Shown here piece after piece: positions 12,649 through 50,837 of a stretch of DNA of 64,000 nucleotides. The position numbers and the translations under genes are program-made. A model generated the notes under the pieces. That model saw only the letters and a program-made list of their open reading frames with translations. It did no database searches and was not told the DNA's origin. This DNA comes from Neopestalotiopsis rosae (taxonomy: Eukaryota > Ascomycota > Sordariomycetes > Amphisphaeriales > Sporocadaceae). Position 1 is the stretch's first letter, and each line of letters starts with the position of its first letter. Where the stretch lies: contig JALGAS010000008.1 of NCBI GenBank assembly GCA_023078685.1, positions 558,001 to 622,000 of the forward strand, written 5' to 3'.

Positions 12649-15600
12649 ATGCCTGAACTAATTCAATACACAATTGGATGGATCTGTGCCATCAGAACAG
12701 AACTCGTCGCAGCCACGGCAATCCTTGACGAGAAACACGACGACCCCGAGTATCTTCCTGCTAACGACGACAATGCTTATGTTCTAGGTCGCATCGGCAG
12801 GCATAATGTTGTGATCGCTGCGCTACCGCAAGGACAGTATGGACTCGTTAGTGCCGCGAAAGTTGCAACGGACATGTTGCGTAGTTTTACCAGTGTGAGA
12901 GTCGGGCTCATGGTAGGCCTCGGTGGTGGCGCACCCAATCAAAAGCACGATATTCGCTTAGGCGATATCGTGGTCGGCTCTCCTGGCAGTGGTAGAGGAG
13001 GGGTCCTGCAATATGACTATGGGAAGACAATACAGGGAAAGGACTTCAAATTGACTGGACATTTGAATCAGCCACCGCAATGTCTTTTAACGGCGCTGAC
13101 TGTACTTGGCGCCGAGTATGAGATTGATGGCCACGATATCCAAGCACAAATCAATCGAGTTTTCGAAAGAAAGCCGCGATTACGTACCACATACAAAAAG
13201 CCAGACTCCAAATCGGATTGTCTATATATACCTTCATTCGAACACGCTGGAAGCGACACCGATAGCTGTGCAACTACTTGCAATGACAATTCTAAGCTGG
13301 TTACACGAATCGAGAGATCTCCAGAGCAGGACAGTCCAGTGATCCATTATGGACTTATTGCTTCTGCCAATCAGCTTATGAAGGATGCTCATACTCGTGA
13401 TCTGCTATCGACGAAAGAAGATATCCTCTGCTTCGAAATGGAGGCTGCTGGGCTTGTCAACAGCTTTCCCTGCCTGGTGATTCGTGGCATTTGCGACTAT
13501 TCCGATTCTCACAAGAACAAAGTGTGGCAGGGCTACGCAGCCATGGCAGCAGCTGCTTTTGCCAAGGATCTCCTCCAAAAAGTAGCCCCGAGCAAGGTGG
13601 CTGCAGAGAGAAGATTGACCGAAGTTCTTTCAAATGGTGTGTGGCGTAGCAGTCTTCAGTCTGCAAGCTGCTAATCTCGATCAGTGGATACAAAACTGTC
13701 TAACATCTCTGGCAGTCTCAGCCAATCCCAAAGAAACCTTGAAGCCCTGCATACAGATCGACAGACAGAAAGGGTGATGCGATGGCTTGCAGCGGCTGAA
13801 GTTTCCAGCAATCTGAATAAAGCCATTGAAACCCGCCACAAAGGCTCTGGTCACAAGCTCATTCAGAGCGAGGCCTACGTCGAGTGGAAAAGACATTCCA
13901 ACTCGTTTCTTTGGTTGAATGGAATTCCCGGATGCGGCAAGACGATTCTTGCAGCTACTATAATTGAGGACCTACAATCCGACCCGGGGTGTTCTCAAAG
14001 CCTTCTCTATTACTATTTTGACTTTACCGATGCACAGAAACAGGACTTCAAGATTGCAATCCGCTCGCTCTTGGCTCAGTTCTATCTGAAATCTGGAAGC
14101 GGCAAAGCCGAATTGGACTCTTTGTACTCATCTTGTAGGAATGGTTGGGAACAACCCAGCATGAAGTTACTGACATCAACATTCGCAAACATCGTTCAGG
14201 AAGTGGGAGAGGTGTATGTCGTGATCGACGCCCTTGACGAATGCTTGATAAGGCATGACCTACTCGAATGGCTGCAAGATATCCGAGCTGAGCAGATGAA
14301 CGCGCATGTTATTGTCACAAGCCGTCCAGAGCAAGATATACAATCACTTTTCAGTGGATCTTGCAACGATAAAGAGATTGTGACAATACGAAATCAACTC
14401 TTCGAAGATGATATACGCAACTATGTACAAGCGCGTGTTCGGGAGCACGAAGCATTGAGTCGATGGCGAAAGAGACCAGATATCCAGAAAGAGATCGAGA
14501 CAACATTGATACAAAAGGCCAACGGAATGTAAGATCTGTCTGATAGCAGTCATACGACTTTTGCCAAGTGCGCACAGGTTTCGTTGGATTGCATGCCAGC
14601 TTGACGCCCTAGAAAAATGCTGCGACCCTAAAACCTTGCGAATCACCCTTGCATCGCTACCAAAGACTTTGGACGAAACATACGCACGCATTTTAGCCAG
14701 AATACCTCCAGAGCACATGCGACAAGCAATCAGATTGCTCCAGTTTCTCACGTATTCGGAACGGCCGTTGCGAATCGAAGAAGCTGTTGACGCAATTGCA
14801 GTCGACGTAGGGCCCGAAGTGCCCAAAGGCTCCCGCTTTGATCCCAAGAATAGAATGCCAATTCCGGCTGAAATCACGGTATACTGTTCAAGCCTGGTTG
14901 TTCTCGTTCGAAGAGAACTAAAGTGCGTATCTTTTAGGCCAAAACATATATTATCTTCTCCTGGGCCGAAACACATCCTCGAAGAGATCCAATTGGCGCA
15001 TTTCTCTGTGAAGGACTATCTCATCTCAGACCGCCTGGAAAAGGAGGCTGCTCAGTCTCTCAAGGAGATACCGGCCCGAAGTTTAATGGCCGAAGTCTGT
15101 CTCACGTACTTATTACAACTTGATCTGGGCGCAACGGAAATTCAACAAAAAAAGGCATACCCGTTTTCTGAGTATGCTGCAAATTACTGGGCAACCTACA
15201 CTGCTGTGGGCGAGAAGAACAGTCAAACAGTGCGTCAGCTCGCGTTAGAACTTCTCCAAAGCCCAACTTCAATCGCAATCTGCCGCCAGGTGCAGACACA
15301 CCTCTGGGAGCCTCCGTTGAACGAGGCTGCAACAGGGCTATATTATGCCTCACTTCTAGGTCTGCCGCGGTGCACTGAAATTCTTTTGGCACACAATGCT
15401 GATATCAATACTCATGACGACTCATACGTAGAGGCGTTGCATGCCGCCTCATATATAGAGGCGTTGCAAGCCGCCTTAGTAAGAGGGCATGTAGAGGTAC
15501 TCCAATTGTTGATAGAAAAAGGTGCCAGTATTCATTCCAGAGGTGGGAAATACGGTACTGCATTACGAGCCGCTGTTGCTGGACGGCAGAGTCATGTTGT

Positions 15601-16849
15601 CCATCTCATGCAGCGAACAACACCCCATATCAACGCATGGGTCGCACCTGGTAGTGATCAGTGGTATCCGAAATTGGACACAGCGGATCAGAAGGGATTA
15701 GAGTTACTGCGTTCTGCAGCCTCCGCTGGGAACGCTGAGCTTGTCCACCTGCTTTTGGATTTAGGCGTTGCGCCTGACGCGACTGGTGAAATTTTAACTC
15801 TGCTAATTTCTGCCATACGGAGCAGGAATATCGAGATTGTCAGACTACTGCTAGAAAGAGGAGCCGACCTATCAGCTACGGACCGCTTAAGGAGGACTGC
15901 ACTAAGCATTGCCGCAAATAAGGGATACGTCGAAACCGTTAAGCTGCTTCTCGAAAAAGGAGCCGACCTATTAGCTACGGACCGCTTTAGTAAGACTGCA
16001 CTAAGCATTACCGCAAATAAGGGACACGTCGAAATAGTTAAGCTGCTTCTCGAAAAAGGAGCCGACCTATCAGCTACGGACGACTATGGGAGGACTGCAC
16101 TAAGCTATGCCGTACGCAAAGGACACGTCGATATCGTCAAGTTGCTTTTCGAAAAAGGAGCCAGCTGGTCTATCGTAGACAAATATGGGCTTACTCCATT
16201 GCAATCGGCAGCTGATTTTGGCCAATTCAAAATATTCCAGCTATTGCTTGAGAAGGGTGCCGATATCATGGCTCAGGATTGGGCAGGCCGGTCTACTCTG
16301 AGTTTTGCAATAAAATCTGGATGTGAAGAGCTATTCTCTATGTTACTGTATCGATCTCCCTTGCTGGTTGATCTCAAGGATCATTATGGTTCAACCGCCT
16401 TGTCGGTGGCTGCACGTTTTGGGAGAACAGAAATGGCGAAGGCATTGGCCTTTTCGCCAAAGTCCGACTTGATCTCTAAAGACAAGTTTGGAAGGACTGC
16501 GTTGTGGTGGGCACAAACGCAAGGTCACAACGACATTGCGAGTGTTCTTTTTGCTTCAGCTTTGCTGAGAGGTATTCCTATGCCCGATATCAGCTTGCCG
16601 ACCGGGGCTTTCTCGTTTTCTCGTACCGCGAGAGCCTGGTGCCATGTTTGCATGGGTAATTTGGCAAACCTTCCAAGGAACTACTACTGTCGACTGTGCC
16701 TGAGCGACAAATTCTACGTTTGTTCGAGTTGCAGACTCCTGGGAGCTCACTGTCTTGACGCATCACATGTGCTGGAATTACGCGTAGAACGGGTGATAGG
16801 ACATCTTGAGGAGGGCGAACTCGATTGGGACTCTTCCGACACATCCTAG
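12649..16849 (+). CDS. NOD-like receptor: PNP-NACHT-ankyrin-ZZ-like finger
   Basis: Fungal NLR of 1,367 residues in three exons (12649-13636, 13685-14528, 14578-16849). Residues 1-320 are a nucleoside-phosphorylase-like domain (start YTIGWICAIRTELVAA; glycine-rich LMVGLGGGAP; C-terminal CFEMEAAGL). Such domains act as sensor or effector modules in fungal NLRs. The NACHT part has Walker A NGIPGCGKT near 406 and Walker B VYVVIDALDEC near 505, then KANGMFRWIACQLDAL, typical of this class, which is formed across the second intron. From about 860 to 1250 come ankyrin repeats, several almost identical at DNA level. The C-terminus (about 1297-1345) is cysteine-rich (CHVC, CRLCLSDKFYVCSSC, AHC, H), resembling a ZZ zinc finger. 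The likely role is immune-like or non-self recognition by NTP-driven oligomerisation. The architecture is sure, the ligand unknown. Confidence 0.92.
15830..16225 (+). repeat. Tandem 99-bp ankyrin-coding repeats
   Basis: Repeat units begin at about 15830, 15929, 16028 and 16127, each 99 bp (33 codons, one ankyrin repeat). The first three units share long identical blocks such as GGAGCCGACCTATCAGCTAC and ACTGCACTAAGC; the fourth is diverging. Near identity at DNA level suggests recent duplication or gene conversion within the NLR's recognition region. Confidence 0.9.
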
Positions 16850-28791: not shown

Positions 28792-31700
28792 CTATATGAC
28801 TTTGACACGCTCCCCAGGAGAATCGTACGAAATGGATCTCCCTAGCATGTACCCAACCCCAACCCTCACATAGGTCCTGGACGTCCCCTGGCGACCCGAG
28901 ATCTTCGGACTTATTACGAGGACATAGTGTTTCCTTTCGCTCAGCGGTGCATCTCCGACGTCCCTACCAACAATGACACACTTGAATGTCTCGCCTTCCG
29001 TCTTGCCTGGTACGTCAAATACCAACTCAGAATCCCGTATGGACTTAGCAAGCTCAAAGCTCCGTGCGGTGACCGTCAGGCTGATGTCATCATCATATTC
29101 CCTTGTTCTTCCGGCGCCACCACGACTCAAGTGCCAGGGTGAGTTGATCTCGTCCGGCTGCCAATCCATCTTCTCGAACGGCAGGTCCAGATAATCGATG
29201 GCCCCTCTGTATGCCATCCAAGACCACGTTGGCACGGATTTGGATCGATCCGGGGGGAACACGATTCTATCCATTCTGGGCTCGTCAAAGCCGCGACGCC
29301 AGAGAAGACTTCGGCGTAGCCATCCGCGATTGAGTCCGTCGTCGAAGACGCCCAAACCGCCGTCGCACCCGCCAGAGGCCTTGAAATTGTCGAGGAGTCG
29401 CTTCTCCAGTCCAGATATAGCGATCGGGCGGTCTTCGATCTTGGTGAAACCCAGACGTGAATATTGCATGTACAAGTCTTGGTACAGTCGGATTTTGCCT
29501 CCTCTTGACGATTGCATCGCCACCTCGGGAAAGTTGGGATCTCCCAGGAATGCGGCTAAACCGCTGTGAAATGAGATCATCAGTGACGGTAATTGATTTT
29601 GAACGTTCCAATTGTACGTGATTGACTTACTTGCGCATCTTGGGTCCGGTTTCGCATCTGACACCATCGCCACATTCCCAATAGGTCTGTCGCTCGGTGA
29701 AGTAGACCGTGCGATGTGACAAGGCTCGCTCCTGGAGAACCCAGGCCCTCTTACACATGGAGCCCTCGAGGACGTCTTGATTGAAATCTTCGATTGACTC
29801 GCACAAATAGAAAGGCTTCTGACCATCTCGCTGAAAGGTGACAAACTGCCTCTGGGGCCGGGCTTGCAGAAACCCATCCGCCTGGTGCGTTGCGCGACTG
29901 GCGGCTAGGACACAATATGCTGAACTGAAGACATCCTCCATTCGCTTTGACTCGTCAATGAAATCTCCACCTTCGCCCTGAATGATGCAAAGGGAGTCTA
30001 TCCAGAGATACTGGAATCCGAGCGCACGCGTTGTTATGACGGCATCCTTGAACGTTTCAGGAAGCTGGTCAAATTTGATCTCCTTCTTGTACTCCGCAAT
30101 GTTGGATGTGTAGGTGCAGAAGTGTGGAAGTCTGTTGGGATCGCCCCAAGGGTGGGATAACGCGATGTACTTCCACGCATCTGCAGGCGGCGGCTGGCGC
30201 AAACGGAGATATGGTCTGTCTGGTTCACCAACATCTAAGAGTCTTGTAGGCAGGAATTTCTGCTCCCGTAGTCTGCAATTTGGGTGATTTGAATCACATT
30301 CCTTGAGCCACCTCCGTATGGTATTGAAATGGCATTCACTTCGGGGTTCCGGAAGCTCTGGAAGTCCTATCTGAATCTGTGTCGATGTTTTCAAATCTAT
30401 CATGACCAACCACTTTAGCTTGGACGTCCACTGGTCTCAATGATAAGACAGGCACTCACCGGGGCTTCTGAGTATGGAAAATACTGGAGCGTTGCCGTTG
30501 TTGAACTTGTTCAGTCTTATGGTTGACTCATTTCGTGAAAAGCGTACAGCTTCCGTTTCACTCAGACCCGTGCGAACGCATGACTGCCATAAAACATGAC
30601 AAAATCCGCATTGGCCAGATGTTTCCCTGAAGGAAGAGACTAGACCCCTGATTTCGAATAAAGGCGTCCAAAAATCAAGGCCAATGCAGCGATCGCAGAG
30701 TTTTGCAGGACTCCGGCTCGGGAAGGGTACAATAGACTTCTCTCGCTGCTTGAAGATACTCAATGCGAAATCATTATCCACGGAGAAGTTCCAAATCTTA
30801 TTTAGCTAGTGATTGGATCAGTTGGAATATCTCTGCTTTCTCGATGGATAACTCACTTACTGGCTGTAATACATTAATTTATAGGTTCATAGGAGAGCGG
30901 CTTGCTGAACTTACCGGCTGTTGATGTTCAAAAGATTATTGTCAGATTGTGTATCGGTAACAGGAGGGTGCTGTGGTGTGTACACTTACATGCTGTTTTC
31001 AGTGTTAGCCTGTTCAATCGAATCCACAGCTGGGTGATATAATGAACAACTTACGTCCTGGAAAGTTAAGAATTGATGATTAATGTTCAGCTGGCGCCAT
31101 CGCATTCAAGTTCACTTACATACTGAAAATGTATCAGTAATGTTGCAGAACAGGACAATCCTTGACTGGGCTACTCACATCGTCCTACAAAGAGAAGGGC
31201 ATCTCTTCAGCATGATTGCGACAAAAATCATAGGGGAAGGCTACATACGTTCTGTGTGGAACTCTGCTTAGCAAGACAATACATGAAGTGAAGGGAAAAT
31301 TAGTGCTTGGTGAGATACATTGCTTACTCTTTGTTTGAGAGGAGACCCAGCCTTCAGAATTGGCTGCGAGCCTCGTGGCAAAAGTCCCGGTCTCGATCTA
31401 TCGGCCCCCGGTGCAGTCAGGAGGCCGTCTTGAGTAATCAAAGGAGTCTGTTGACCCGGCCCATGCATGTTGGACCGTCCCTTTCCGGTAAAGGCATAGG
31501 CAGAGCTTCTCTCAATGTTCTCCAAGATCTCACCCAGTGATGCCACGAGCATGGTGGTATTGGCCCGCGCTGGCCCAACTTCCTCGTCGAAATCATGCTT
31601 GCGGATGGACACCCCGCTACCCGAGCCAGATACGTGATCTGTAAAGCTCTTTCGCTTTTTGGGAAGCGGTACAACTAGTAGCTTCGTCCTGACCAGGGCA

Positions 31701-33285
31701 AGGAGATCCTGTATAGCCGATGCTTGTGAGCACTCGGGATCATTTATCGTAATGTATGTTATCCAAGATACGATTGTATGATGAACTCGTGCTTTTTCTC
31801 CTAGTGTATAGACCTTGAAGTAAGTCCCTTTGCTGGGCAGGCAATCCTTGTCAATACTTTGCTGTAGATTGCTTAGCTGGTCATAACCGTAGAGCATCCA
31901 CACAATAAATTCAAGGATGATGCAGCCCATGGACCAGATATCATACAGGCGCGATCGAGCTCCCTTGCTACTAGCCTCCGGAGGTTCGTATCTCGCCGTG
32001 CCAAATATCGTGTTTGTCGGTGGCCTGACGTCCGTGGGATCGTGATGACGTTTAGCCAAACCGAGGTCAGCGATCTTTAGTATACCCAGGCGGCTTTGAT
32101 CGCGATGATTTCTGAACCGAAGTATATTTTCAGGCTTCAGATCTCCGTGGCGGTAGTTCTCTGTTCCATTATAATGATGCAACTCATCAAGCGCATCGGC
32201 TAGGCCCTTGAGCTGCTGAATAACGTCACATACGAGCTCGGAGCTCAAGTCGGGCCGCTTGATATTCTGCCAATAGTCCCCGAGACTTCCACCATCTGCC
32301 CAGGGAAAGATGAAATATCTCTTTTCTCCTTTTTTAATGGCAGCAACTCTTGGGATGATATGCGGGTGATTCAAACCGCTCAAATCACTACGTAATCCAT
32401 ATTAAGCTTTCGTCCTTGATTCAATCGCAACACTTGCAAGTTTGGATTGGTCATTGGATCATGTTTCTCATGAGAACACTTGATCTGTGGGTAGACAGGC
32501 GAAAGTTTGATCTAGGTTGTACGTACTTGAGTGACTTTGCCTCAGCTTCCCAGTTCTTTTCCACGTCTGCCAACTCCAATTTCTCAGTAGGCCTTATTTC
32601 CTTGATGGCAAAATGAGCGGGCTTGCCGTCAATCTTGAACGCATTAGCTTCCTGAAGAGGTTTGATCAATACGGTTGCACTATACAGTGTACTTAGGCTC
32701 CTCTTGATGAGACTGGTGGATCTCGACCTCGAGGACTTGGCTCGAGTATCCCTCTTTGACCACTGAACCCTTCCAGACAAAGGGCAGGATACAGCTGGGA
32801 GAAATATCATATACAAAGTCGGACCGTTTGAATACTGGAGAAAGGAACATCCATTGCTTGCTGAAGAATTCATTAATCATGAATGGGTCCCAAAAAGGGG
32901 AAGCGAAGGCCTTGCAAGCTGGGTAATATTCCTGCAGCGCTTTGTCAAGAGGCAAGGAATTATCGCAGAAGTTGTTTTTGTGGTATTTCTTCATGACCAT
33001 GTACAAGTCATCCTTCTGTATCCTGCAGCAGACGGCAATCGCGAAGACCTTTGGAGCCTTATCCAAGATAAATTCGAGCAAAGCCTTCTTTTGCGCCGCA
33101 CGGAGCTTGGGAATCTCTCTGCACACTGCATCTTGCGTGACCAACCCTCTAAGGCAGCCCTCTGGCAAGAAGAGCTGGGTTGGGCTGTCGAACTGACTTT
33201 GGCAGGAAGCCTCTAGAATACGGCTGGCTAGTGAAGGCGCGTCGCTATGACAGTGGCTGTCGTCGGAGGAAGAGTCATCTGACAT
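28792..33285 (-). CDS. Kinase-HET fusion A (N-domain, protein kinase, microexon linker, HET)
   Basis: I read one gene of 1,235 residues. Exons: 32686-33285, 32527-32651, 31328-32387, seven microexons (separate entry), 30460-30805, 29631-30396 and 28792-29563. Residues 1-200 form a helical domain shared with three neighbours (QLFLPEGCLRGLVTQD, then KQWMFLSPVF). The kinase (about 205-595) has FAIKEI, the hinge FIFPWADGG, HGDLKPEN in place of HRD, DLG in place of DFG, and ARYEPPEAS. After the linker come a Cys motif (CDRC...CGFC) and the HET domain (about 805-945: YIALSHPWGD, LWIDSLCIIQ, RAWVLQERALS), a domain that triggers cell death in fungal incompatibility. The HET frame has no ATG before the domain, supporting fusion. 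The first intron (32652-32685) would be only 34 nt, so that junction is uncertain. The alternative is two genes, kinase and HET. Confidence 0.75.
30806..31327 (-). other. Microexon train joining kinase and HET in fusion A
   Basis: Reading the minus strand from the kinase exon end (31328), canonical sites define exons 31249-31266 (18 nt), 31179-31184 (6 nt), 31120-31122 (TAT), 31055-31057 (GAC), 30990-30992 (CAT), 30915-30917 (CCG) and 30861-30863 (CCA). They are separated by introns of 61, 64, 56, 62, 62, 72, 51 and 55 nt. Donors are GTAAGC, GTATGT, GTGAGT and five GTAAGT; acceptors end in AG, mostly CAG or TAG; branch-like CTAAC, CTGAC or CTGAT strings lie upstream. Every exon is phase 0 and adds whole codons (QSSTQN, DD, Y, D, H, P, P), joining two frames that are otherwise closed by stops. 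Confidence 0.75.
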
Positions 33286-34020: not shown

Positions 34021-36739
34021 TCAGGTGCTTGGTGTTTGGACAGCCACGTCGATTACATTTCCTTGCACCCGCCCATTCCTTCCCGCTAGTCTCTCAAAAT
34101 TTGTCTTGGGGAGCTGAGGAACTCTGGTTGCGACCCTGTGGCTCTTCTTGGCATTCCTGGCCCCTATGGCGTAATCCTTCGATTTGACGCATTTCGTGTG
34201 CATCTTGTTGAGCTTGCTGTGCACTTCTGCGCTGGTGATCCTTCTGTTGCCCTGCTTCACGTACTCAACCACCAGCATGTCTCCCGTGATCATATCGAGG
34301 AATTCATGTATGAAGTCGCTGCACTTGGGATGCTTATGTAGCTCTTCAATGAACTGAAACACGATTGAGTTAGCTGGCCCTTCATTTCTCTCCACTAAAA
34401 ACTCCGATGACTAGGTACTCACCTCTATGACTGCACTCTTGACGACACCTTCGGTTTCGTCGTCGTCATCCTTGATTATCTCGAAGAATGCATCGTCCTG
34501 GATCTCCGGATGGTTTGGCTTGTACTTTCCCAACCCCAACCTGCGCAAGGCGAATTGGTCGAGAAGGGTACGCCCCCCAAGCAACCATGTGATGAACATC
34601 AGGTATACACAAGCAAGCGACCAGATGTCATATGATCTTCTGATGACCCGGCCCCGGAGAACACATTCTGGCGGCCGGTAGGTAGGCGAATTTGCGACCT
34701 CGTGGCCTGGTTTGTTGGACCTACTTTGACGGCTGTTGAACTCAGCCAAGCCAAAGTCTGTAATCTTGAGAGTACCCTTGTCGCTGCTATCTGTCGGGTC
34801 GGAGAACCACAGTATGTTCTCTGGCTTGATGTCTCCATGGCGTCCGAACAACTGATCGTTCTCCATGTCTGAAACTGTGACGTGACGGTGAATTTTGGCA
34901 AGACCAGAGGCGATGCCTTGACACTGCTGGGCTACCCATCTCACCGTGTCGTGATTGAAAATGGGATTCGGCCTGGTCTTTTGCCAGAAACTAAAAAGGT
35001 CGGCGTCTGCCCAATGAAAGATGAGATAGTAGCAATTGAATTGCTCATAGGTAGCCAGAAGGGATACTAAATGAGGATGGTAGTAGTCGCTGAATTTCTT
35101 GAGCATCTCCACTTCCTTCTTGAAATCCGATTTGTCCCGCGAGTCCAGCTGCTTGATCGCAAAACTCGAAGTGGCCGTCTTTCAAAGTCAGTCTTACGAA
35201 CGTCAACTTGGCATCTTAAGCAAGGCGCTTACCTTATCTTCATGGAAATCATGATGACCGGGATGGATGTCAACCTTGAACACTTGACTGTAGCCACCTA
35301 TCTCTACGTCCGTGTTCTGCTGCCTACTATCCAGGGTAAATGGCAGAATGATGCGATCTGGTAGTGGATAGTGCTTGACATCCTTGCGTGCCCCTTTGGC
35401 AAAAAATGGAGAGAGTGTCATCCACTGTAAGAGAAAGACTTAGTGAGTATAGTCCAACCTTAAGTCACATTGAGTTCGTGACTACACTTACCTGCCATTC
35501 TTCGAAGTCGAGAATCTCGATACTATCCCAGCCACGGAAACAATCTAATGGCCGATCCTTTTCACCTGAGCGGCGCAAGTCGAAGACATTTTGCAAATTC
35601 GGACGCGGAATTTTGACAAGAGGCAAATCAGCATCACTGACACCCTCCTCAATGAAATGTCGGATAGCGGAGGGCTTCTTTGCCACAACCAGAATGGCGA
35701 ATATATTCCGAAACGATCGTGCCCTGCGAGACTTGCTTTTTCCAACTCGTAGTTCTGGGGCTTGGTCTTGGCAGACTTGTCTGGCAATATCTTGAACGCT
35801 TGTGGACTTCGCAGACTTTCTGGATTTTCGCCGAGCAAGCTCTCGTGCCACAGAGTCTTCGGTGACCAATATATCAATTGCACCCTTGGGAAGGAAACCT
35901 TTAGATGAGGAAATCGCAACCAGCGACTGGTGGATTCTTGCCCGAAGAGGGAGTGTTTGGTCGACCTGCGGTGGTAGAGATTGCGCATGGTTATGTGATT
36001 GACGATTGGCCCACTGCTGGTCGCCTAGATCTGTGATTTCACTGGGCGCAGCGGACAGCTGGGGAGCATCCAATAAAGCACGGTTGGGCACACTTTCTCC
36101 TCTGATGGGAGCAAAAGCCACATGTAAACCTGTATCATCTCCACTAGATGTATTATCCGAAGATCCCGAACCCTGGGAAAGTTTGCTTAAGTCAGCATCA
36201 TACGCAAAAAGGCCAAAGAGAACGATTAATCTTACAATCAGCTCTGAGTCTGACTCTTCTATTTGTCCCCGACGTTCCTGGATATCCCGATCTAGTGGTC
36301 CAAAGCCAAATGGTGACTCCTGAGTTACTTCAGTACATGAAGTCGATTCGGCCGGGGTGCTTGGACATTCAGACAGAGTCGAGGTGCTGGCTTTGTGACT
36401 ATATTTGTCTTCATCATAGCGAACTGGAGCCGGTTCTTCACCGTCATCGCTATGCAAAATTACAGGAATGTGAGGTTGACTACGCGGCAATTCAAACTGG
36501 GTATTCAATGGTGTCAGTCGCTTCGGTTGTACGGCTTCATAGTTGGCCGTGGCCACCGAGGTCGATGGTGAGCCCCATGGACTCGTAACTGGTGCCGCTA
36601 AGCCGGGCACAGGGGTGGATTCACGAACTGCTCCAAGCCCATCAGCCCCCATAGAGCTTGCCGTGAGAATGGTAGTATGCTCCTGCCGCGACTCGGCCAC
36701 TCCGTTCGTTCGAATTGAGTTCACTTGCTGGAAATCCAT
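34021..36739 (-). CDS. Protein kinase with shared N-domain (paralogue D)
   Basis: Five exons (36236-36739, 35492-36172, 35233-35424, 34423-35178, 34021-34353), all joined in phase 0, give 821 residues. I start at the ATG at 36739 (MDFQQVNSI); the frame upstream opens only with GTG. Residues 1-280 are low-complexity, Ser/Pro-rich and probably disordered. The shared helical domain follows (GFLPKGAIDILVTEDSV near 298, IFAILVVAKK, DADLPLVKI), then EEWQWMTLSPFF and the glycine loop IGGYSQVFKVDIHPGH. The kinase has FAIKQLD, YLIFHWADADL, RHGDIKPENILWF (HGD), ITDFGLAEF (intact DFG) and YRPPECV. It ends with the same LDMITGDMLVVEY helix as its relatives and a basic tail. The 63-nt segment 36173-36235 is in frame but has GTAAG/CAG ends and encodes a hydrophobic run, so I treat it as an intron. 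There is no HET domain. Confidence 0.82.
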
Positions 36740-42226: not shown

Positions 42227-45200
42227 CTAGACGAATCGAATGCTCTTGACATCAGCTGAAAAGTGCGATGTGGTCAAAATACCCACCCCGATTCTCTCGT
42301 GAGAAGAGATAGATTCCTCACGCTTGGACGGCCGTACCATCAGGACATAGTGCGGCACTTCTTTGAGTGTTTCGTCTGCCTTCATCTTCCCGACGGTAAT
42401 GCACATCCACTGATCTCCATCAAAGTCAGCCCAAACATCCATGTCCAGTCCGACTCTTTTTGAAAGATCCGCTTTTCCAATCCTAAGATGTCGCGCACTC
42501 GCAGTGAGGCAGCCGTTGAAGGGCCCATCAACTGATTGTGCGCCGAAGGGACTCTGGATGTCCCCGAGCCACTGTACTTTGGCGTATGGCACGTCCAAGT
42601 ATCCAATTTTCCCCATATAGGCCAGCCAGGACCACGACGGCACAGGTGCATCGCGGTCATAGGGAATTGCAGATAAGCTGCCCGGGCTCTGCGCCCGCCA
42701 CAGAATGAGCCTTTCAAAGTATTCCCAAAAAATACCATAGTCGAATCTACCATCGAATTTTCGCGCTATTCGATTGTGAAGGCCAGCAATCGCGATAGGG
42801 CGGTCTCTGGCCTTCGTCAAACCTAAGCCGCCGTACAGGGTGTGTAGGTATTGAATGAAATCGATACGCTCATTCTTGTAGTAAGATAGACCCATACTAG
42901 GAAAGTCGTGATCGCCTAAACATTGGGACCGAGGGCTGCAAATGTGAATTTAACTTTGAACTTCACTTCGAGCTACCATTACCGGAAGACTTACTTGTGC
43001 AATTGCGCCAAAGTTTCGCAATGGACACCTTGTCCACACTCCCAATAGAACTGCGTCGAGGTGAAATGAATCGTCCGGCGCGACAAGGCCCGTTCTTGTA
43101 GGACCCAAGCACGGGTGTTCAGAATGGAATTTTCGACGTCAGCCTGGAAATCATCTAAAGCCTTCGCCAGGTGAATGTGCCCGCTGGAGGTCTGGATGGT
43201 GGCGCAAACCCTGTCAGGCCGGTCATACAGCATCCCTTCTGAATTTGATGCCGCAGAACTCGCAGCGATGGTAACATAGGCGGAGCTGTAATAGTCTCCC
43301 ATCTTCTTAGCCTCGTTAGCCCAGTCTTCATGGTCGTCCTGAATGATGCACAAGGAGTCTATCCAAAGATATCGTAACCCAAGTGACCGAGTGATGGATA
43401 CAGCGTCCTGCAGTGTTTTGGGGAGCTGATCAAAGTCAAGTCTCTCTCGAAATTTGTCGATGTTCTGACTCGTTGTGCAGTGGTTTGCTTGATCTTGCGC
43501 CTGGCCCCAGCAATGGCTCAGGGCAACGTATCTATCTCGCATATGATCTGACGTTTCGATGAGACGTGGAAACGAGCTTCTGTCTGTCCCAACGTCTACT
43601 ACCCTCCTGGGCATGATTGATGACAGGATTGGTTCATGTTCAGTACGACAACATGGGTGATCCTCGTCGCAGATGCGGAGTAATTCGCGAATGAGTTCAT
43701 ACCGCTCCGTGCCTGTCGTTTTGGGAAGCTGCATCAATCCAATTTGTGCGTAGGTTGTGGTGTCGTCATTTGACCCTACGATGTATAAATCAGGTCAGTG
43801 GCAAAGTTACATCGAGATCGCATTGTGAGAGTGATACAGACCTGGATCGCAGTACATCGATATCAGAGGCCGTCCCATTGGGGTGCTTCTGAGAGAAAAG
43901 TTCCGCCGATAGAGTCGCAGAGGCTCGGATGACTCGATTTGTGCATTTGAAAGACAATGGTTCAGCAGCCTACATACGATACACGCAGCAGACCCACTCT
44001 TGATGGCTTCAGTAGTACGACCAAGCTCGATCTCGGATCTCGAAAGATCGAGCTTCCGACAATCCTGGCAAACAGAACCAGAAGTTGTAGTGGCAATTGG
44101 CCAATTGAGCTGGTTAGCGATGCTGCCTGCCAAGGTATTGCTCGTCACTACCTGCCATACGTCGTTGATATTATGCCTATCCTGTTGTTGCTGTTGTTAA
44201 CGATGGCTGGCCAATTCCTATTGTTGAGACATCTCTTTGATATTTACCGGCTGCCATTGGTTAATAACATGTACTGACACCGTTGGAGGTATTACGAACA
44301 TTCTGCATTTCATGTATAAGTGACCGTAGATTGTTGTCAGTTGCAGTGTACTGTGTGGTCATTTACTCACATACTAGTTTGACTTGTCAGTGATGTCTGT
44401 ACTCCGACCAGTTGGAAATGTATACTTACTGTCTTGGAAAGGGGAAGGGAATTCTCCTCCCCGCGCCCAGCACTAGTCATGTCTGGCTGGCCTGCTGTCA
44501 GCTCTTGGAGGTTGTCATCAAGCCCATAAGAGGAATCGGGCGGAAGGTTACCATCTAATGTTTGTATTTCCGGCCACAAGTCCCTTGAATACGCACGATA
44601 CTCGACGTCTACAATGAGCAGCCGTGTTTGCACCAAACTCAAGATTTTTGTCAGTGCAAAATTCTCCGTGGAGTTTCTGTGAAGAGATGCTGATAGCCGA
44701 CTCATGTAAGTCACAATGATCGGCCGAAGGTGCAAATTTGGATACGGTTCCCAGAATTGAGCTTTCTCCCCACCAGAGTCACTGTAGAATCTTTGGAGCT
44801 CGGAGTATCCTTGATGAACCCAAATCACAAGTTCCAGGAGGATACACCCTAGCGACCACATGTCGTATCTCCGAGAGAACTTTGTCTCTAAGAGGTGAGC
44901 CTCTGGTGGCTCGTATCTTCTACTCCCATGTCTGGTCGTGGTGGGATTATAACGCTCACGCGTGTAAAGCGCGTGGAATTTTGCAAGGCCAACATCCGCG
45001 ATTACCAGATCACCCCAGCTATCAGTGTCATTGGAAAACACAAGAACATTATCCGGCTTGAGATCGCCATGTCGAGTGTGCTGATCATGGAGCAACTTGA
45101 TTCCGTCAACCAATCCTTTGACTTGCAAGACGGTCCAAGCCAGCAAGGTCTGGTGCGGTGTCCTCTGTCCTTGTTTCCATAGCTGAGAGAGGCTGCCTCG

Positions 45201-48277: not shown

Positions 48278-50837
48278 ATGGGCTCGCCGAATTCAATCAA
48301 TCTATCTGAGCCAGACTTTGCAACCAAAGTAAGCGATGATCTTCGTGCGAAATATTGCCTTCGCTCGAAGGTCCAACTTCGTTTCATTCCTCAAAATGAG
48401 ATCGAAGCGGTTCTCAGCTTGGATGTGATACGCATGGTACTGCATCAAAAGGTCGAACCCACGATAGCTGCAATGGATGCGTTAGTGGATGTCATTTGCG
48501 GAGTGAAATCAGCAATGAAGTTTATCAAGATATTCGCCATTTTGACGCTGATAGACAAAGTCGCCTACATAACGGAGTTCATCAAAGCAAACATATGTGA
48601 TGGTGATCTGCCATTCTTAGATCCAGAAAATCTGTACAATCGTCTCAATACCTGCGACACAGGGAAGCTTGAGCTTTTCTGCGACAAACAATGGTACGTT
48701 TATGTGCCGACTTTCAACCTAGCACCGGACGAGGTCGAGATAAAGGTGTTCCCGTCACTCACGAGACTACCAATTTTGCATCGAGAAGTCAAATCACAAG
48801 GAGGGCAAGGCGAAGTATGGAAAGTCAAAATACATTCTGAGCATATCCAAGGAGACGTTGTGGTAGGCGTTCCCAAGTTAAAATTTTTTATCACTTGACC
48901 TGTAACTAAGACTTTCCACGCCACAGAAAGGCTCGCACTTTGCCATCAAGAAATTTGCCGAATCCGACCGTCAACACTGGGATGACGAAATCCGAGCTTT
49001 AACAAGATACAGCGGGTCACACTCCGGACATACCCACCTCATAAAGCTTCTCGCCGCATATCATCATGAAGACAATGGACTCTTTCTGGTTTTTCCATTA
49101 GCTGAGGGCAACTTAGCAGAATTCTGGAAAGCAGAATCATCGTGCGTGCGGTCGTTCGATGATGCCCGTTGGCTTCTGACGCAATGCTTTGGGATTACCT
49201 CAGGACTTTGCAAAATCCACTCACACGATTCATGGCCAACGGACAAGCTTGGTCGACACGGAGACATTAAGCCAGAGAACATTTTGTGGTTCAAGAAATC
49301 CTCTGTAGATCGTGGTCAGCTGGTGGTGGCAGATTTCACTCTAACTCGCTTTCACACTGATGCAACAGTGGACGTTACGATACCAGGCCAGCGTGGATAC
49401 ACGAGAACCTTCCGGCCCCCTGAAGTGGACTTCAAACCCGAGATCCAGAGAGCGCAGAGTTATGATGTGTGGAGTCTTGGTTGCGTTTTCCTAGAGTTTG
49501 TCGCGTGGTACTTACTAGGTTATCACGCTATCCGAGAGAAAACCTACGTGGACCAAAACGGCCAAAGCCAGCAGGGATTCAATGATGCGCGTGTCGAAGA
49601 GGATGATTGTCGTTGGGAGACACGGGAGGATAAGTTTTTCAATGGATCAAACGGACAATCTGGTCAGACAGCTGAGGTTAAAGAGTCCGTGGTCAAGGTA
49701 CGCTGCTTCCTCTCCCCGTGACACGGCGTACAAAGCGGCAACACTAATAGCCACTCAAAGTGGGTTCAACTACTACATCGATCGAGTCAGTGTTCACAAG
49801 CTATGCACAACTTTCTGGACCTTATCGCAGACTCTATGTTAGTCGTCGATCTCAAAAATCGCAGCGACATGAAGACCGTACTAAACGAGTTGAACAATAT
49901 CCGCCAACGGACCTTCGACTATGAGTTCACCTACCTCGGATGTCCGCGACATACCCTGGGAGCCGATATAGGTCATCCATCCTTCAAGAGATCAATGAAA
50001 GCAGCCGACAAAGCCTACCGCACGTCCATATCTGAAGACTCGCTAGAGAACCATCCTCTCAGTACCATTTCACTTGAGACTACAAACGCTGGCACAGGGC
50101 GAGATTATCAAGAAATAGCAAAGGTTCTGAGCGCTGAACTAGGTGACGGCAATCAATCATGTTCAACTCCCCCATACATTAAACGGGAACCACACGTGAG
50201 TTCTCATACACAACAGAACAACGCTCTCGATGTGAACGAAGACGAAATGAACATGGTGAGCCCTGAATATCTTTCACCACAACGAAACAAGGGTGACCGC
50301 GGGAGGAAGTACAATTTCTCTCATGGTCAAGAGTCTGAAAGCCAAGCGTCATCGTCGCGCTGCACAAGTCAGGTTTCGATGCATGGACAAACCGCCATGA
50401 GCCAATCTTGCATTGTATCTTCTCAATCTTCAGAGTCTTGCGATGACCTGGGTACCCCAACAACACGTCTGTCGACCTCTTGCGGATTATCACGCGCATC
50501 TTCTTCCAGAGTTGATGATGTAGATAAAGTTGCCAGCTTCACTTCAAAGGAATACAATACTACTCGCAACAGTATCAACCATGCCGATGGCTTTGAACCC
50601 AATGGAATACAACATGGGTGGGGCTGCGCACTCGGTACTGATATTCCCGGGATCCTTGCCACGCAAAGCCGTTGTGGTTCTTTGGACCAGCCTGTCCAGT
50701 TCAATCCGACCAAGAAGAATTCAGTAAACAAGAGACGTAGGAAGAAGCTTGCACTAGCATGGCGCAAATTCTGGAGGACGATTCTAGGCAGAAAGAAGCA
50801 GGCCAACCCATGGGCTGATTCCGTAGGCGTAGATTGA
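48278..50837 (+). CDS. Kinase-like protein with shared N-domain (paralogue C), possible pseudokinase
   Basis: Three exons (48278-48862, 48927-49697, 49761-50837), both introns phase 0, give 810 residues. The N-domain (about 1-170) has LRFIPQNEIEAVLSLDVI, KIFAILTLIDK, CDGDLPF and QWYVYVPTF. The glycine loop QGGQGEVWKVKIHSEH and HFAIKKFAESD follow, with intron 1 between them. The kinase has LFLVFPLAEGNL, RHGDIKPENILWF (HGD) and VADFTLTRF: the DFG glycine is Thr, so activity is doubtful. FRPPEVDFK and SYDVWSLGCVFLEFVAW are intact; the closing helix reads FLDLIADSMLVVDL. From about 500 on the protein is a Ser/Thr-rich, probably disordered tail ending in a strongly basic, tryptophan-containing segment (RRRKKLALAWRKFW). 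It is divergent from fusion B; there is no HET domain. The likely role is a signalling partner of the neighbouring kinase-HET proteins (inference). Confidence 0.85.

Follow-up and report, generated by a model that had tools for sequence, protein, structure and literature searches.

In the 64,000-nt stretch of the Neopestalotiopsis rosae genome analysed here (the window; C16:558001-622000 in a genome of 53.8 Mb and 17 contigs), a gene with a kinase domain on its upstream and a HET domain on its downstream side is predicted to connect both parts through a train of minute exons, five of which consist of a single codon. With an estimated probability of about 0.83, the joined small exons (SSTQNDDYDHPP, 36 or 39 nt) are spliced in as SSTQN-DD-Y-D-H-P-P between the kinase exon and the sequence LNKIW, thereby rebuilding a D-Y-x-x-P-P-L motif between kinase and HET domain. 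This reading draws on the architecture of the gene itself, on paralogues in the same genome having single-codon exons at the same junction, and on homologous proteins from other fungi showing the motif at the same place.

Gene architecture and predicted exons

In the Pfam scan, the upstream side of the gene matches PF00069 (E 1.2e-22) and the downstream side PF06985 (E 6.1e-27), and no NACHT or ankyrin domain was found; the scan covered four pieces of the gene, which gave kinase families, HET or nothing, with 32451-32876 (N-lobe) and HET exon 3 lying outside it. Hence, both domains that characterize the fungal kinase-HET (TOL-like) class are present, with their linkage in one protein being predicted, and we infer that the product is a single kinase-linker-HET protein of the fungal self/non-self (TOL-like) kind. 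HET domains belong to a type associated with cell death. For the N-lobe junction of the kinase at about 32685-32652, a frame-keeping intron of normal length was not found, the in-frame option by eye being only 34 nt. This junction may represent an unusual intron or a lesion, and the copy might be damaged upstream and not fully functional; the evidence from the paralogues described below is independent of this problem and not touched by it.

Eight intron-like segments (GT...AG, 51-72 nt) were located on the minus strand between 31327 and 30806 (Table 1), all of the lengths given in the original prediction; the branch-like strings that had been ascribed to all of them were matched in seven of the eight, the exception being 31248-31185. 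Likewise, all five AG-3 nt-GTAAGT sites claimed for the region between kinase and HET domain were retrieved. Preceding these, the expected 6-nt exon is present, whereas the expected 18-nt exon can be either 15 or 18 nt long due to a tandem acceptor (AAGCAG), and 15 nt was picked here. The donors of these two exons, GTATGT and GTGAGT, respectively, are good but not GTAAGT, and in this respect the equal site quality originally proposed does not hold. The order of the small exons is thus 15 (or 18), 6 and then five times 3 nt, and their joined reading continues in frame into the HET exon (L...). As had been predicted, the frame is open from the kinase into the HET domain once spliced, while the unspliced kinase frame closes at a stop at 31268, and the HET frame has no ATG of its own, with HET exon 1 (30805-30460) being devoid of any Met.

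Table 1. Predicted parts of the kinase-HET gene and related features (window coordinates unless a contig is named; slashes denote predicted exon boundaries)
Feature	Positions	Strand	Remarks
Whole gene	~33285-28792	-	start placed by eye
Kinase exon	31328..32387	-	PF00069, profile position 53 onward, plus start of linker; ends ...SPLKQR; donor GTAAGC
Intron 1	31264..31327	-	64 nt (61 nt with upstream AG of tandem acceptor)
15-nt exon	31249..31263	-	AGTTCCACACAGAAC, SSTQN; 18 nt with alternative acceptor
Intron 2	31185..31248	-	64 nt; branch pattern unmatched
6-nt exon	31179..31184	-	GACGAT, DD
Intron 3	31123..31178	-	56 nt
Single-codon exon	31120..31122	-	TAT, Y of DYxxPPL motif
Intron 4	31058..31119	-	62 nt
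Single-codon exon	31055..31057	-	GAC, D
Intron 5	30993..31054	-	62 nt
Single-codon exon	30990..30992	-	CAT, H
Intron 6	30918..30989	-	72 nt
Single-codon exon	30915..30917	-	CCG, first P of DYxxPPL motif
Intron 7	30864..30914	-	51 nt
Single-codon exon	30861..30863	-	CCA, second P of DYxxPPL motif
Intron 8	30806..30860	-	55 nt
HET-side exon 1	30460..30805	-	begins LNKIWNFSVDN; Met-free
HET exon 2	29631..30396	-	holds HET domain (PF06985, E 6.1e-27)
HET exon 3	28792..29563	-	to stop codon
AG-NNN-GTAAGT sites	31124-31114, 31059-31049, 30994-30984, 30919-30909, 30865-30855	-	
This copy, junction			Y/D/H/P/P/L
C1:5430k, junction			NE/Y/Q/F/P/M/L; five single-codon exons, codon boundaries identical to this copy
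C13:3584k, junction			T/E/Y/R/N/TQ/L
C14, junction			E/Y/N/F/L
C16:601k, junction	44430-44181		T/Y/N/P; second kinase-HET gene of the window
C16:601k, single-codon exon	44371..44373	-	TAT, Y
C16:601k, single-codon exon	44300..44302	-	AAT, N
C16:601k, single-codon exon	44248..44250	-	CCG, P; Y-N-P recurs in P0137
C16:1575k, junction			N/Y/N/P
C12, junction			T/Y/RIT
C3, junction			Q/T/Q; one 3-nt exon
C1:3532k, junction			microexon absent
Partner kinases	34411-35181, 48906-49721; C16:1580645, C13:3578522, C12:1303418, C1:3526133, C1:5433943		

Frequency of the pattern and similarity of the introns

The window contains seven matches to AG-NNN-GTAAGT, five of them inside the train, compared with a mean of 1.32 and a maximum of 5 in 100 dinucleotide shuffles. 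With a YAG acceptor and a branch-like string as requirements, 3-nt exons form a run of up to five, on the minus strand, and none of the other exon lengths examined (ten in all: 1, 2, 4-10, and 12 nt) yielded a run above one on either strand. In 300 Markov-1 sequences of 64 kb, taken as one strand each, runs of 3-nt exons never exceeded one, and a chance run was rejected on this basis. Genome-wide, the pattern of two such sites in succession, each with GTAAGT as its donor, occurs at seven places versus six for the backwards control, and these seven comprise four in the present train and one each in a paralogue train, in an amino-acid permease gene and in a place that is seemingly AT-rich as judged from its letters. 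A lone AG-3-GTAAGT pair is therefore no evidence, whereas the run of five is. The idea that stronger donors offset the tiny exons was dropped, being true for this copy (5/5 GTAAGT) but not clearly for the nine-gene family, in which GTAAGT follows 10 of 26 three-nt exons versus 2 of 13 other exons (counted by hand).

The amino-acid permease (C11 ~5079893-5080006; L008 4894-5007) shows an apparent isolated 3-nt exon GAT. With this codon, 158 residues fill profile positions 69-226 at 118.1 bits, and without it 157 residues give 114.3 bits.

An origin of the train from tandem duplication or introners was likewise rejected. At the train there is no tandem array, the direct repeats being short (12-16 nt) and present in just two copies, and the likeness test, which covered the 39 introns of the kinase-HET junctions, resulted in a best score of 9.5 among 741 pairs, below the maximum of 11.0 among 2223 shuffled pairs. 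Near-identical introns, as are typical of introners, are thus not present at these junctions. As the intron sequences resemble each other no more than shuffled ones do, the trains did not arise by recent copying of a single intron. Tandem repeats do occur elsewhere in the window, at 15413-15476 and 15854-16162, with units of 27 and 99 nt; the latter presumably resembles a 33-residue ankyrin repeat.

Predicted single-codon exons in paralogous genes

Searches of the same genome with queries from the kinase (one) and from the HET side (three), followed by local comparison of the loci, revealed at least nine kinase-HET loci among the best candidates, to which scoring was confined. At the kinase-HET junction, 3-nt exons are predicted in seven of the eight paralogues, with boundaries partly the same as in this copy (Table 1), amounting to 26 three-nt exons in eight of the nine genes and to between zero and five single-codon exons per copy. 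As one of the nine copies lacks any microexon, the train is not essential to the kinase-HET architecture. Among the eight genes having 3-nt exons, the first of these encodes Tyr in six, and Tyr is found among them in seven. The 39 junction introns of the family are 47-91 nt long (median 59 nt) and leave remainders of 0, 1 and 2 when divided by 3 in 13, 12, and 14 cases, respectively, and all 30 small internal exons of the chosen models are multiples of 3. In these models, an exon of 3 rather than 21 nt was chosen for C16:1575k, the nearer AG being too near the branch site, and one of 9 rather than 28 nt for C12 on account of the frame.

The tree calculated for the HET region contains a well-supported branch (99/100) that splits six paralogues from this copy, C13, C1:5430k and 14 foreign proteins. 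The root of this tree is the drawing midpoint, 13 of its 20 inner branches are open, C1:5430k sits on a long branch, and C1:5430k and C14 were entered as partial sequences. Introns flanking the Tyr codon occur in copies from both groups, and as far as can be inferred from this one tree, they would predate the split, if the latter is old. This copy, C13 and C1:5430k have the same peptide length from Tyr to the HET exon but different intron-bearing boundaries. For this reason, the phase-0 short introns were probably gained between pre-existing codons, long ago.

A second kinase gene was observed about 2-5 kb from seven of the nine kinase-HET loci, arranged head to head in six of the seven cases and in tandem in the case of this copy. 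Six of the seven partner kinases group apart from the kinases of the kinase-HET proteins (100/99), the exception being C1:5433943. The kinase-HET genes C16:601k and C16:1575k are sisters of each other, and so are their two partner kinases.

The motif in homologous proteins and records from other species

The predicted codons read D-Y-D-H-P-P-L, similar to D-Y-x-x-P-P-L found at the same place in homologous kinase-HET proteins. Among 85 homologue models anchored at the HET-side Trp, 33 show [DNE]Y..P just upstream of it, and 24 of these (counted by hand) have the form DY[TSA]LPPL; examples preceding the HET side are DYTLPPLEDW, DYSLPPLKDW, and DYSHPPMDGIW. The Delitschia protein P0032, with D-Y-S-H-P-P-M-D-G-I-W, is equal in length to D-Y-D-H-P-P-L-N-K-I-W of this copy. 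Homologues come from genera including Xylaria, Delitschia, and Parastagonospora, which we take to belong to different orders. The remaining 52 of the 85 models do not show the strict pattern. By eye, at least six of these (P0013, P0018, P0037, P0040, P0043, and P0086) are anchored at the wrong Trp and six further ones show a looser form with Tyr, and some of the remainder may reflect annotations skipping the exons as opposed to true absence. The pattern also matches at other Trp sites, in 81 of 2292 cases in all, a count that is not a clean control because the C-terminal part of HET bears a similar conserved string.

Kinase and HET domain are combined in one protein in 98 of the best 120 of 1495 homologues, and 14 NCBI records among the same 120 have HET without a kinase domain (both counted by hand). 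One homologue, P0014 from Colletotrichum melonis (1681 aa), is named tryptophanyl-tRNA synthetase and also possesses kinase and HET domains; it is probably a merged gene model. Solved structures with similar HET sequence were not found at E 0.1, and in a search for relatives on viral contigs, 73 stretches matched a pattern but none was confirmed.

A direct comparison across the junction is possible for P0137, an uninterrupted 646-aa ORF (longest contig 3620 nt, source lgn), and the Cytospora schulzeri model P0143 (VMCG_10306), which agree in 79% of 636 aligned positions. Where P0137 reads PISQQ-YNP-KTSILVDKW, P0143 has PISQQ-RTSTLVDKW and is three residues short. The same residues, Y, N and P, are each encoded by a single-codon exon in C16:601k and C16:1575k, the latter continuing with RTSNLQDTW after Y-N-P at equal length. 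As its ORF is uninterrupted, P0137 is read as a transcript, and the simplest reading would be that it derives from spliced RNA, while the P0143 annotation skipped three one-codon exons. Among the 28 proteins tried as non-NCBI, this is the sole clean pair across the junction, with several of the others beginning at or after it or aligning too weakly there. The model P0080 from Neopestalotiopsis clavispora agrees with the C13 copy on either side as far as the predicted exon ends and has IQ where the latter has TEYRNTQ. The C13 copy has two separate proteins as its near relatives in Neopestalotiopsis sp. 37M, the kinase P0123, which stops some residues short of the train, and the HET protein P0121, which begins well downstream of it.

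Proposed splicing and alternative explanations

According to the model, eight introns of 51-72 nt would be removed, leaving exons of 15, 6, 3, 3, 3, 3, and 3 nt in frame. Splicing would proceed by intron definition, with the spliceosome pairing both ends of a short intron, and neighboring introns would be taken out successively, the latter because a 3-nt exon could hardly seat both flanking complexes at once. Ordered intron definition is the likely mode of splicing at the train, as ascomycete introns are short and, according to a passage in PMC6616335, recognized by intron definition. Recursive (ratchet) sites of zero nt, in which AG is directly followed by GT, were not found, three bases intervening at all five sites. 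The train shares with stwintrons of Pezizomycotina the adjacent short introns needing consecutive splicing reactions, as outlined in the same source, but differs in that all eight introns have their own GT and AG, seven of them also a branch match, and that coding sequence lies between them.

On the model, all 255 patterns of intron retention run into a stop within HET exon 1 or earlier, and all 128 patterns of small-exon skipping stay open. As retention always stops and skipping does not, the two kinds of splicing error would differ in their products. In such an asymmetric gate, a retained intron would terminate translation within or before HET exon 1 and yield a kinase without HET domain, while a skipped exon would keep the frame and merely shorten the linker by one or a few residues. 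That such a gate is ancient in the two deep kinase-HET groups and in several orders, with HET being attached only after ordered one-codon splicing and introns kept at nearly every codon boundary of a conserved heptapeptide for that purpose, appears rather doubtful.

The open frame of all skipping patterns would also suit microexons that are real but mostly skipped, being removed as part of one composite intron of 522 nt or of several large introns, the single codons then being alternative inserts. Annotated models of relatives without these residues point in the same direction, and alternatively spliced codon-sized microexons have a precedent in truffle nank genes, as far as these are described in the sources cited below. 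However, the residues fit a motif of fixed length conserved in homologues and are contained in the uninterrupted ORF of P0137, and 522 nt is far outside the range of the family junction introns; we hold predominant skipping to be improbable. Two separate genes, a kinase ending at 31268 and a HET gene having the introns in its 5' leader or first part, would be in line with the NCBI records of HET without kinase and with the separate records in strain 37M. This arrangement is nevertheless very improbable given the Met-free HET exon 1, the predominance of proteins combining both domains among the best 120 homologues, and small exons that are all multiples of 3, with a motif spanning the junction.

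Finally, the run of AG-3-GTAAGT sites could have arisen by chance or from repeats within a linker that is decaying, for which the pair counts in the genome and the backwards control as well as the possible lesion in the kinase N-lobe might be adduced. Against this stand the simulations (five versus a maximum of one), the lack of a tandem array and of excess likeness among the introns, and the paralogues having 3-nt exons at the same junction with different intron sequences, and this least probable of the explanations is in our view already refuted. The preferred reading remains inclusion of the single codons in a continuous kinase-linker-HET frame.

Comparison with known systems

Strings of small symmetric exons within one gene are known from the micro-exon genes of Schistosoma. 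Unlike the kinase-HET train, these have larger exons and encode secreted parasite proteins of an unrelated family.

Contrary to the original statement that no fungal gene with consecutive single-codon exons is known, such exons are reported for Tuber melanosporum. The passages on its nank (NACHT-ankyrin) genes in PMC3689799, PMC4986451, and PMC10197012, citing Iotti et al. (2012), describe multiple or tens of codon-sized or 3-bp microexons that are alternatively spliced. Both systems have multiple consecutive 3-bp exons, here predicted, in a fungal self/non-self or immune-type gene, but according to these passages a NACHT-ankyrin receptor is diversified by alternative splicing in the truffle, whereas a kinase-HET linker is concerned here, whose single codons make up a conserved motif and lie at positions common to diverged paralogues. 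In Fusarium CYP621A, a single-nucleotide exon is described (PMC12940212), which resembles the present case in being an ultra-small exon within a conserved motif recovered via comparison with homologues, but is isolated rather than part of a train and RNA-supported rather than predicted. Similarly, the single-nucleotide exon of Arabidopsis APC11, for which a passage in PMC4674806 proposes intron definition and stepwise removal, is too small for exon definition, although it is one exon, in a plant, and shown by experiment. Functional microexons had previously been undescribed in filamentous fungi according to a statement in PMC11121469, and a literature search did not find single-codon exons reported in a kinase-HET gene. 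The novelty lies in the gene family, in the conservation of the motif and in intron positions being shared, whereas codon-sized microexons as such were already known.

Implications

If the predicted splicing is true, nearly each residue of a conserved motif has its own exon. This would be a stringent test of intron definition, as there is almost no exon to define, and would bear on how small exons can be. Moreover, in a number of fungal genomes already published, gene predictors would omit the motif or break up the gene, and some kinase-HET genes would be recorded as separate kinases and HET proteins; kinase-HET genes of this type are probably mis-drawn in databases. The copies with zero to five single-codon exons at partly matching positions would then provide a natural series for studying the gain, the evolutionary persistence and the ordered splicing of such introns.
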